A DNA stretch of 43,487 nucleotides, taken from the NCBI GenBank assembly GCA_030649835.1, contig JAUSES010000049.1:1-43487 (forward strand), in the 5' to 3' direction. The stretch's first letter is position 1. Every line of letters begins with the position of its first letter. Made by a program: the position numbers and the translations under genes. Positions 40,375-43,356 of this stretch are shown piece by piece. A model generated the notes under the pieces. It saw only the letters and a list, made by a program, of their open reading frames with translations, searched no databases and was not told the DNA's origin. The stretch is from a bacterium (GTDB taxonomy: Bacteria; Patescibacteriota; Minisyncoccia; Phycocordibacterales; UBA1550).

Positions 40375-41980
40375 GGTAAATATGCGGGTATAGTTTAGTG
40401 GTAGGATGCGACCTTCCCAAGGTTGAGACCCGAGTTCGATTCTCGGTACCCGCACAATTCGAGACTTGGTCGGAAAAATCGGTCGCGCGCTGGCGCGCTG
40501 TATTGAGAAGGGGGTGGGCAAAATCCGTTTTGGTCTTGCATGCAAATGCGAATTCGGTGGGCGGGCAAAATGAGACGGAGACGGATTTGTCTCGCAATTG
40601 AAGGTTCGTTCCAACTTTTTTGAAATAGTCACGAATTTCAAAAAAGTCATCGCTCGAAACCAATTGCGTGGCTTGTTTCATATCTAAAATCCATTCCCGC
40701 AAAGGTTCGACCCAATTCTTTCTCTCCTGTCGAGCAGAGTCCATTTTGTGTGCGAGAGAGACTTTTTGCAAGAGAAGCTCGTTCTTTTTGGCGAGATAGT
40801 TTGCCTTTGGAATATCGCCATCAAGATACAATGTGACCAAGTTATCGAGCTTCTCTTGCGTCTCTCGCTCACGAGTCCGTACCTGCTCGACAGCACTTCC
40901 CGACGACAAATATTCTTCTTTTTCCCACGAATCCGTTTTTCTCATCATGTACTCGATCCAGTCGTCGGGAAGTGTGATTTGTTGAAGACGTTCCTTGAGT
41001 TGAGACACGAGCTTTTCTTCTCGCAAATATCCTTGTTCACATTTTCCATTCTTTTTCGTACATCGATAATATCGATAGAGACCGCCACTATGACCTTTTG
41101 CCCACTGCGCGGTGATCATCCCTCCACACTCACCACAACGAAAAAGACCCGTGAATGGAAAATCGTGATGCTTCTTTGATTTGCGAGGTTTCGCTCGTGT
41201 CTTCAGTCTTTTCTGTACGGCTTCAAACAAATCGGGAGAAAGAATTGGCGCAAAAGTGCCAGGATATAATTCTCCTTTATGTTTTACAAAACCTAAGTAC
41301 ACTCTATTGGAAAGCATAATAGAGATGGCACTTTTGCTAAGTGGCGTGCCGTTCCGAGTAACGACGCTGTGTTCCGCAAAAAACTGCGATACGGATTCAT
41401 AGCAATGTTTGCCCGTGGCGAATTCTTCAAAAGCGCGAACAACAAGACGAGAGGTCACAGGGTTAGGTTCGATATTTCTCGTCCTAACATTATTTACATA
41501 TCCAAAGGGCGCTTTTGTGAGCCATTCACCACGGCGCAGTTTTTGACGGATACCTCGGTCAACATTTTGTTTCAAATTGTCAGAATAATATTTCGATTGA
41601 CCGAACGCCACTTGTAACATGAAGAGACCTTGCGGGGTGGGTTCAAACCAAAACGTCGGAAAGCGCAAAGCAATAACCTTGGTCGTGTCCACGGCGTAGA
41701 TGACGCGCCCACCATCAATGGAGTTTCTCGCTAAACGATCTGGATGCCACGCGAGAATACCCACACCATCCATTGACTCTATGCGCGACATCATCTCGCC
41801 GAATTTCTCACGACCCGGTTTCTTTGCGCTTTTCGACTCTGTAAATTCCTCAAGAATTTGCAGATTTTCTTTGCGCGCAAATTCACGAAGCTCAAAGAGT
41901 TGAGCTTCGATACTCATAATCTGTTTGTCGTCATCCTCTGTGGACTTGCGCGCATAAAGAAAATATTTTGGTTTGGTCAT
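40301..41980 (-). CDS. Large serine recombinase at tRNA-Gly
   Basis: From ATG 41980 (MTKPKYFLYARKSTEDDD) the product has 559 residues: resolvase catalytic domain with Ser13 in YARKST and ILAWHPDRLARN, recombinase domain (WLTKAPFGYVNNVRTRN), zinc ribbon (CGECGG ... YRCTKKNGKC) and coiled coil (ERETQEKLDNLVTLYL). Large serine recombinases integrate, excise or invert DNA. The upstream frame to 42139 lies in the right inverted repeat and is rejected. Residues about 471-510 are coded by the left inverted repeat and about 510-532 by the antisense of tRNA-Gly, so the natural end of the protein is doubtful. Confidence 0.88.
   Translation of the reverse strand: MTKPKYFLYARKSTEDDDKQIMSIEAQLFELREFARKENLQILEEFTESKSAKKPGREKFGEMMSRIESMDGVGILAWHPDRLARNSIDGGRVIYAVDTTKVIALRFPTFWFEPTPQGLFMLQVAFGQSKYYSDNLKQNVDRGIRQKLRRGEWLTKAPFGYVNNVRTRNIEPNPVTSRLVVRAFEEFATGKHCYESVSQFFAEHSVVTRNGTPLSKSAISIMLSNRVYLGFVKHKGELYPGTFAPILSPDLFEAVQKRLKTRAKPRKSKKHHDFPFTGLFRCGECGGMITAQWAKGHSGGLYRYYRCTKKNGKCEQGYLREEKLVSQLKERLQQITLPDDWIEYMMRKTDSWEKEEYLSSGSAVEQVRTRERETQEKLDNLVTLYLDGDIPKANYLAKKNELLLQKVSLAHKMDSARQERKNWVEPLREWILDMKQATQLVSSDDFFEIRDYFKKVGTNLQLRDKSVSVSFCPPTEFAFACKTKTDFAHPLLNTARQRATDFSDQVSNCAGTENRTRVSTLGRSHPTTKLYPHIYHRTYEVGCNTRRRGRKMQAVPQVQ
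40384..40454 (+). tRNA. tRNA-Gly (anticodon CCC)
   Basis: The acceptor GCGGGTA pairs with TACCCGC, the D arm is TAGTTTAGTGGTAGGA, the anticodon stem CGACC/GGTTG holds loop TTCCCAA (anticodon CCC) and the T arm is GAGTTCGATTC. CCA is not encoded. Its last 3 nt belong to the 117-bp inverted repeat, so the recombinase element adjoins the tRNA 3' end. Confidence 0.94.
40452..40568 (+). repeat. Perfect 117-bp inverted repeat, left arm
   Basis: Every base matches the reverse complement of 42037-42153. Outside the 117 bp the similarity continues after a 10-nt gap (AAAATGAGACGGA). The arm begins within the last 3 nt of tRNA-Gly. Confidence 0.95.
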
Positions 41981-42036
41981 AATTGTTTTTAGATATGAAA
42001 AAAGAAAAGTCCGTGTCCGTCTCATTTTTGCACCCG

Positions 42037-42153
42037 TTGCCCGCCCACCGAATTCGCATTTGCATGCAAGACCAAAACGGATTTTGCCCACCCCCTTCTC
42101 AATACAGCGCGCCAGCGCGCGACCGATTTTTCCGACCAAGTCTCGAATTGTGC
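42037..42153 (-). repeat. Perfect 117-bp inverted repeat, right arm
   Basis: Reverse complement of 40452-40568 without mismatch. The two arms enclose the 1468-bp segment with the recombinase start codon and most of the gene. Confidence 0.95.
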
Positions 42154-42362
42154 TGTATTGCTATGCTTTGCTCGAACCTATTTTGAACAGAATGGGGACA
42201 ATGGGGACTAGCGCACGCCGAGCGGGCGTTAGTCCCCATTCTTTTCAAAATATAACGAATACAATATTGGGTCCTCGGCTCGGAAATGTGAGAGATTACT
42301 CTCCCGTTTCACTCGCTCTACGTTCCCAATAGGTTCGCGCAAACCATAGCAATACAGCACAA
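42148..42362. repeat. Second inverted repeat pair (35 bp) with internal hairpin
   Basis: 42148-42182 and 42328-42362 are inverted with 33 of 35 matches. Inside lies an 11-bp stem AATGGGGACTA (42200-42210) / TAGTCCCCATT (42230-42240) with further pairs below the loop. There is no ORF. This and the next hairpins fill the gene-free stretch 42154-42543. Confidence 0.8.
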
Positions 42363-42404
42363 AATGCCATCACCTAAGCGATAGCTTAGGTGATGTTGCA
42401 TTTT
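42361..42404. repeat. Perfect hairpin next to a tRNA-Gly fragment
   Basis: CATCACCTAAGC (42368-42379) / GCTTAGGTGATG (42384-42395), extended by AAAATGC (42361-42367) / GCATTTT (42398-42404). Confidence 0.8.
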
Positions 42405-42409
42405 GTAGT

Positions 42410-42543
42410 GGGTACCGAGAATCGAAAACCGGAGTCGGTATACAAGACGAGCATCGCGAGTGCTTGTCTGCGAGGTCGGGGAGTAAGTTCTTAGCGAGTT
42501 TACGAGCTTAGAAACTTGACCCCGATTCTCCCTACCCGCACAA
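42410..42543. pseudogene. Two tRNA-Gly 3'-end fragments, inverted and direct
   Basis: 42410-42426 is the reverse complement of TTCGATTCTCGGTACCC of tRNA-Gly. 42523-42543 is a direct copy with two changes. The intervening ~95 nt form further stems (GACGAGCA/TGCTTGTC). Confidence 0.7.
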
Positions 42544-42551
42544 AAATACAA

Positions 42552-42919: not shown

Positions 42920-42992
42920 GCCCTTGTAGTTCAATGGATCAGAACAGTTCCGTCCTAAGGAATAGATGTAGGTTCGATTCCTGCCGGGGGCA
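42920..42992 (+). tRNA. tRNA-Arg (anticodon CCT)
   Basis: The acceptor GCCCTTG pairs with CGGGGGC (two G-U), the anticodon stem GTTCC/GGAAT closes loop GTCCTAA (anticodon CCT), and the T arm is GTAGGTTCGATTCCTGC. CCA is not encoded. An inverted, interrupted copy of its 3' end is at 43192-43245. Confidence 0.92.
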
Positions 42993-43005
42993 CAACGTAA
43001 AGAAA

Positions 43006-43029
43006 AACAACGCCTGCGCGTTGTTTTTT
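43006..43029 (+). terminator. Terminator of tRNA-Arg
   Basis: AACAACGC / GCGTTGTT with loop CTGC, then TTTT, 14 nt after the tRNA. Confidence 0.88.
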
Positions 43030-43191
43030 AGTTGTGCCGGGCGCAGTGATGTTTTGCGAGTACGCAAAACCACGAGCCGGGGTAGCGAACACTTTGTATT
43101 TTGTGAGTAGTCGAAACAAAATACTTAGTGATTCGTGACCACAAGAAGCGTAAGGAAAAGCACTCAACCACTCTAGAGTGACTGGGTGTTT
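43030..43191. other. Gene-free stretch rich in short palindromes
   Basis: Stems seen: TTTTGCG/CGCAAAA, GTATTTTGT/ACAAAATAC, and the 12-base palindrome CACTCTAGAGTG nested in a larger hairpin that ends in TTTTTT near 43190. No coding sequence is supported. Confidence 0.6.
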
Positions 43192-43245
43192 TTTACGTTG
43201 TGCCCGAGAGCACGTGAACTGCTTCACGTGCGTGCAGGAATCGAA
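43192..43245 (-). pseudogene. Inverted tRNA-Arg 3' fragment with palindromic insert
   Basis: On the minus strand TTCGATTCCTGC (43245-43234) and GGGCACAACGTAAA (43205-43192) match tRNA-Arg and its 3' flank exactly. In place of the 3 nt between them in the real tRNA are 28 nt holding the hairpin GCACGTGAA/TTCACGTGC. Confidence 0.75.
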
Positions 43246-43356
43246 AAGGTTGAGCATATCGCAACTAGCCGAAGGCGAAATGAGATGCGAAACCTCTACC
43301 GTTCCCGTAGGGAAAGATAAGCGTACACGCGATCCTGACGGTGGTACCATATAAAA

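Follow-up and report, generated by a model that had tools for sequence, protein, structure and literature searches.

What kind of element is a serine recombinase gene that is enclosed by two perfect inverted arms, one of which runs into the 3' end of a tRNA gene, and why does the recombinase encoded there end in a peptide read from the antisense strand of that tRNA? We address this question for one locus in a stretch of 43,487 nucleotides (hereafter, the window), using its relatives for comparison.

Anatomy of the element in the window

The window locus lies on contig C8 of a 1.06-Mb genome that is 98% complete and whose closest named relatives are Candidatus Yonathbacteria MAGs (Patescibacteria). 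The two arms, each 117 nt long and spaced 1468 nt apart, are 100% complementary, as an earlier note on this DNA had reported, and the arm sequence has two matches in the whole 1.06-Mb genome, namely the two arms themselves; for a perfect match of this length, chance is not a credible source. The gene between the arms encodes a Resolvase (PF00239), a Recombinase (PF07508) and a zinc-ribbon (PF13408) domain in that order, which bears out its first identification as a serine recombinase, and the final part of the open reading frame of this large serine recombinase (LSR) is an antisense reading through tRNA-Gly ('..GTENRTRV..'). Arm A does overlap the end of tRNA-Gly(CCC), but with the ARAGORN boundary the overlap comprises the last 4 nt (GCAC) rather than the 3 nt initially counted. 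The surroundings of the arms had been described as degenerate throughout, and this description does not hold: past a short indel the arm repeat extends inward with 88% identity over 26 nt, and a second inverted repeat pair links positions 42148-42188, outside arm B, with positions 42322-42362 (90% over 41 nt).

This second pair is essential to working out the element. The cassette between the arms, which had been taken for the whole unit, is only a part of a 1905-bp element that has its other end at 42357 (Table 1). A simple transposon with terminal inverted repeats was also considered as a candidate and was rejected because conserved sequence sits outside the inverted repeat: the element runs past arm B to 42356, and both the conserved P sequence and the cargo position lie beyond the repeat. 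Taken together, the sequence strongly supports the anatomy given in Table 1.

Table 1. Features of the integrated element and of its target in the window (positions in the window; a dot marks features given without strand).
Feature	Position	Strand	Basis
tRNA-Gly(CCC), target; T-arm and 3' end form attB	40384..40455	+	ARAGORN; empty orthologous sites in congeneric genomes L123-L137
Integrated element, full extent, 1905 bp	40452..42356	.	Direct GCACAA at both junctions; excision in silico restores the arrangement of empty relatives
attL: core GCACAA, tRNA junction	40452..40457	+	Sequence
LSR open reading frame, present state, 559 aa	40301..41980	-	Start 41980, stop 40303-40301
Arm A: LSR coding 3' end and P' half of attP	40452..40568	.	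LSR frame open through the arm in 64/64 members
Arm B: inverted spare copy of arm A, upstream of the LSR start	42037..42153	.	Layout common to 61/68 relatives
attP2: inverted core of the intact internal attP	42148..42153	-	Sequence
P2: spare code for the native LSR tail (VLLCFARTYFEQNGDNGD-stop); follows the core if LSR is inverted	42154..42211	+	
Cargo position; in the window a short non-coding spacer with a hairpin adjacent	42212..42295	.	
P1: second copy of the tail code (VLLWFARTYWERRASETGE-stop), far junction	42296..42356	-	
attR: core GCACAA, far junction, followed by old chromosomal sequence	42357..42362	+	

Insertion at tRNA ends and mobility of the element

The element shows two features by which an LSR element is recognized, being bounded by short direct repeats (GCACAA at 40452 and 42357) and having empty attB sites in relatives. 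Specifically, same-genus genomes carry the FtsB-like gene, the tRNA-Gly and the glutaredoxin gene without the element, and when the element is removed in silico from the window, the tRNA joins a hairpin, ACAAAATGC..GCATTTTGTA, in an arrangement resembling that of L133 and L136. Integration at the 3' end of the tRNA with the tRNA kept intact, as had been proposed from the window, agrees with this comparison. Additionally, in the related genome G004 an LSR of 91% identity lies at a different place and the tRNA-Gly site is empty; the element therefore moves.

Across the family, the repeat on the LSR 3' side directly adjoins a tRNA 3' end at 54 loci, the targets being tRNAs for Glu, Ser, Ala, Gly, Arg, Leu, Val, Ile, Lys, Pro and others, and in 11 loci with shortened repeats the tRNA lies near the LSR 3' side instead of directly adjoining it. 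ARAGORN identifies the 3' end of tmRNA as the target in at least three loci (L011, L077 and L101), and further insertions at tmRNA 3' ends were judged by eye in L049, L050, L051 and L115. On the LSR tree, the target gene switches at least 23 times.

Several side observations concern these insertion sites. The genome of the window holds a second family member (L003, on G000:C19) of 43% identity, which sits at tRNA-Ser(TGA) between arms of about 111 bp that are 95% identical. The LSR segment of L028 lies between tRNA-Phe and tRNA-Leu, the picture expected had each attP copy recombined with a tRNA gene of its own, either in a natural cassette exchange or through a chromosomal rearrangement. A non-coding unit of about 190-250 bp follows tRNA genes at 42363-42545 and at about 42988-43345 of the window as well as downstream of tRNA-Gly in L128-L130, L133, L134, L136 and L137, with two units in tandem in L134; it is composed of a hairpin, an inverted copy of the tRNA T-arm/acceptor end and a conserved stretch (..CTTAGT..GTGACC), and in many cases the tRNA 3' end is present as a direct copy as well. 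A search of Rfam gave no match for this unit and found only a tRNA downstream; the unit is possibly a repeat that targets tRNA ends, or a structured RNA.

Inverted arms recur in relatives and evolve in concert

A scan of species genomes yielded 318 relatives of the LSR protein, of which 80 loci were kept, and 99 related genomes added more; each locus was compared with itself to find inverted repeats and was assigned to a class of LSR identity (at least 55%, 40-55% or below 40%). The arm layout is widespread. A long near-perfect inverted repeat surrounds the LSR in 53 of the 59 loci that have at least 55% LSR identity and enough flank, in 8 of 9 loci at 40-55% identity and in 1 of 5 loci below 40%. 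Among informative relatives with LSR identity of at least 40%, flanking inverted repeats are thus present in 61/68, with sequences that differ between members. L053, for which a repeat in the cargo had been assigned as the pair, was left out of these repeat counts, and its orientation was examined separately.

This recurrence decides whether the second arm is an assembly fold-back artefact, as had been raised at the outset. The window does come from a metagenome assembly and many related contigs end at arms; such ends, however, are what a real repeat causes, and the same layout is found in more than 60 loci with different arms, different tRNAs and different assemblies. Because the arm sequences differ between members, we regard a fold-back artefact as excluded for all practical purposes.

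The two arms inside one element have a median identity of 99%, and 29 of 66 pairs are perfect over 100 nt, whereas the same arm is only 65-76% identical between relatives whose LSRs share 60-90% identity. The two arms therefore evolve in concert, and the earlier suggestion that recombination keeps them identical stands, in that the arms are homogenized. This identity could stem from passive gene conversion.

The attachment site lies inside the integrase gene

The LSR frame continues without a stop through the arm and beyond the core in 69 of 70 loci; only the mis-assigned repeat of L053 departs from this. Read over 32 codons, the arm is open in the LSR frame in 64/64 members, compared with 22-53 of 64 for the other frames. 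At the edge of the repeat on the LSR 5' side, a P motif with the consensus CGAAATAGGTTCGCGCAAAGGTTAGTATTTCA precedes the core, scored at a level at which shuffled sequence gave no match. When the LSR frame is joined to P, as it would be in a circle or in the inverted state, it reads into a conserved tail, ..ILTFARTYFEQN-stop, with a native consensus of about (D/V)-I-L-T-F-A-R-T-(Y/F/H)-F-E-Q and a stop that mostly lies 12-20 codons past the core. Since the LSR frame crosses the arm and the core and reads a conserved tail in P, attP sits inside the integrase gene, its layout being the arm (P'), the core and then P, which encodes the last 12-20 or so residues. Integration swaps these residues for an antisense-tRNA peptide, so that the enzyme has the hallmark of a suicidal integrase: an attachment site within the integrase gene, which integration breaks. 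The arms had been understood as plain inversion sites; they are instead the 3' end of the LSR gene together with its attP.

In P, codon positions 1 and 2 are conserved and position 3 is variable, which identifies P as protein code. The same pattern bears on another explanation, according to which the arms and P work through RNA or as promoter sequence, with P2 holding the LSR promoter and the mRNA ends pairing together. TATAAT-like strings pointing toward the LSR do occur in P2 of some members (e.g. L083 and L108); however, no matching -35 box is seen by eye, P1 would drive transcription outward from the element, and the conservation follows codons. We consider this explanation very improbable, and the P motif as a promoter only was set aside on the codon analysis, while a promoter role may exist alongside the coding role of P.

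The tail code also carries a motif of the attachment site. The Arg codon of the tail is CGA in 47 of 49 cases and the next codon starts with A, nearly always AC, which nearly fixes GTTCG on the opposite strand. This GTTCG of P is the sequence of the tRNA T-loop, and its distance from the core is 24 nt in attP and 18 nt in attB (the tRNA). Counted in this way the shift is 6, which we take as the displacement typical of LSR sites; for the zinc-ribbon motif of serine integrase attB and attP, a shift of 5 bp is known (PMC3783163). With tail codons and a T-loop-like motif at a shift of the known type in one place, a single stretch serves as both enzyme tail and attachment half-site.

In AlphaFold2 models, the native tail of L046, which is naturally in frame, is predicted to form a helix at residues 503-523 (pLDDT about 79-87), whereas the antisense tail of the window is predicted to be without structure (pLDDT below 50); this contrast is only suggestive because the sequences and the alignments differ. 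In the window, P2 keeps the family tail FARTYFEQN and P1 reads FARTYWERR, which, as a single case, is as expected if the spare end is in use.

Second P copies and cargo

A second P copy, in the opposite orientation and farther out, is found in the window and in L066, L068, L088, L094, L098 and L114, and indicates where the element ends on the far side. In L066, L068, L088, L094 and L098, the P1 and P2 sequences do not differ. In other members, the region between the two P copies carries cargo, including an aromatic amino-acid lyase, a sodium:solute symporter, an ABC/NMT1 transporter, a glycosyltransferase and a GTP cyclohydrolase II. In L182 (the L105 element), the cargo between the P copies is about 10 kb long and includes the Gabija genes GajA and GajB together with two DNA methyltransferases.

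Viral contigs gave one match in the LSR scan (L189, IMG/VR 3300031358_000112) and none in the exact P-motif scan. In L189, a DNA methyltransferase and other genes lie between the 5' arm (349-410) and the LSR, and this locus is a variant with cargo inside the LSR module. A DNA search of plasmids matched only the tRNA, and protein searches of phages and plasmids returned only distant LSRs of about 28% identity at most.

Orientation of the LSR segment

As long as the element is integrated, the LSR can be joined to a P copy only through inversion of the segment. L053 and L054 represent the same locus, their flank of 4970 bp aligning at 99.8% with 0 mismatches and 3 gaps, and carry the 1709-bp LSR segment in opposite orientations; the L054 contig ends at the arm, where a wrong assembly path is possible. 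L023 is flipped as well: here tRNA-Ser adjoins the 5' end of the LSR, the gene reads into its native tail, and the arms, being only 83% alike, are too diverged for assembler confusion. The native tail is also in frame in L046, L062 and L085, whose contigs start near the arm. Across the loci, the tRNA lies on the LSR 3' side in 54 and on the 5' side in 3.

These orientations partly support the inversion of the cassette that the earlier note had proposed, but the 54:3 bias is unlike that of a free switch, and the LSR itself need not be what flips the cassette. A phase switch of this kind, in which the LSR recombines the arms as inverted sites and thereby inverts its own cassette, would account for the core held in each inverted arm and for the difference between L053 and L054. 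The two sites, however, would be an attL (tRNA-P') and an attP (P-P'), a pairing that serine integrases normally do not recombine (PMC3783163). In addition, the 117-150 bp of homology greatly exceed the length of an LSR half-site, the orientation bias is strong, and the segment is without a switched promoter or gene besides the LSR. A phase switch is thus improbable in our view.

A second alternative is an ordinary LSR integrative element with two inverted attP sites, either of which is usable, in which the tail swap is inconsequential and the duplicate persists either because it offers a second attachment site or through passive gene conversion. Both attP copies appear intact, the tRNA on each side of L028 is what use of both copies would leave, and the P1 and P2 copies are identical in the five relatives named above, all of which would fit this alternative. 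Equal sites, however, predict equal orientations, and the 54:3 bias disfavors equal use of the two; moreover, it is P2 and not P1 that retains the family tail in the window, and a tail under codon-level constraint is one whose loss should matter. We therefore judge two equivalent attP sites to be rather unlikely, though a contender. The simplest reading of the orientations is that the enzyme would be silenced or altered when the element integrates via the attP within its gene, that this integrated state is stable, and that the flipped state with the whole gene would be rare or short-lived.

A proposed self-rewriting recombinase

Building on the insertion site and boundaries, the overlap of gene and attP, the tail swap, the spare inverted end, the concerted arms and the two orientations found in the assemblies, we propose, with a probability of roughly 0.6, that the locus is a minimal integrative element of Patescibacteria with a "self-rewriting" LSR, which has attP in its own gene, swaps its tail on integration and keeps an inverted spare end for re-arming. 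In the excised circle, the LSR gene would be whole, and the enzyme, as its family membership suggests, would recombine attP with an attB formed by the T-arm and the 3' end of a tRNA or tmRNA gene. Integration cuts the LSR gene at the core, with the antisense-tRNA peptide seen in the window replacing the conserved, predicted C-terminal helix, and this tail should lock or alter the enzyme. Arm B, the inverted core and P2 constitute an inverted spare gene end with an intact attP, placed just upstream of the LSR start. Recombination between the arms, to which the two orientations and the homogenized arms point, would invert the LSR gene and restore the native tail while the element stays integrated, with RecA or the LSR as the possible agent. 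Because inversion would restore the native tail in place, the element could re-arm without help from another element.

More tentatively, the C-terminal tail may act as a built-in direction switch, in which the native tail integrates, the antisense-tRNA tail is excision-competent or silent, and inversion resets the enzyme; we hold this to be possible but on balance unlikely. If it were true, integration would flip the activity without a separate directionality factor, the product being rewritten by its own reaction. Genome engineering relies heavily on serine integrases, and the basis of their one-way action is a live question; a serine enzyme whose C-terminus is rewritten by integration, and which carries its own reset copy, would provide a direct handle on it. 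The proposed self-rewriting would also extend "suicidal" integration to a bacterial serine enzyme and suggest how integrases that disrupt their own gene can persist. In Patescibacteria, the analysis reveals a widespread cargo-carrying mobile element, whose cargo in one case includes a Gabija defence system, and accounts for recombinases of these genomes whose C-termini read as antisense tRNA.

Comparison with known systems

The element resembles the large serine integrases (A118/LI, Bxb1, phiC31 and SPbeta) in domain order and fold, and the Foldseek matches of the window LSR are the SPbeta, LI, Bxb1 and phiC31 integrases. It shares with them integration by a short core identity and a zinc-ribbon motif that is nearer to the core in attB than in attP (PMC3783163). 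Unlike them, it has attP inside the integrase gene, a tail that is swapped on integration and an inverted spare gene end; it targets tRNA and tmRNA genes, and the LSR shares at most about 28% identity with those of phages and plasmids.

Invertible gene-end systems, such as the tail-fibre G segment with Gin and hsdS shuffling, exchange the C-terminal code of an expressed gene by inversion. Unlike in these systems, the gene whose end is swapped here is the recombinase gene itself, and its state is coupled to integration. With the IS607 family the element has in common that very small elements are moved by a serine recombinase. IS607 elements are described as lacking terminal inverted repeats (PMC6188088), in contrast to the long repeats, the site-specific integration at tRNA genes and the large recombinase found here.

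In the full text of open-licence papers, we found no description of this layout and no serine or bacterial suicidal case with a spare inverted end. A further likeness is to the archaeal "suicidal" tyrosine integrases (SSV, pTN3 and pT26-2), in which the att site also lies in the integrase gene and the gene is broken by integration at a tRNA (PMC8371274). Such integrases have been called exclusively archaeal, and their rescue has been supposed to occur via the integrase of another element (PMC8371274). Here, by contrast, the enzyme is a serine recombinase, the hosts are bacteria, the exchange is confined to the last 12-20 or so residues and the spare end lies in cis. Being a serine recombinase of Patescibacteria and not an archaeal tyrosine integrase of the SSV type, the enzyme would work like a suicidal integrase without being a member of that group, and from its sequence we class the element as a putative variant of the LSR integrative elements in which suicidal-type integration would be paired with a built-in reset.
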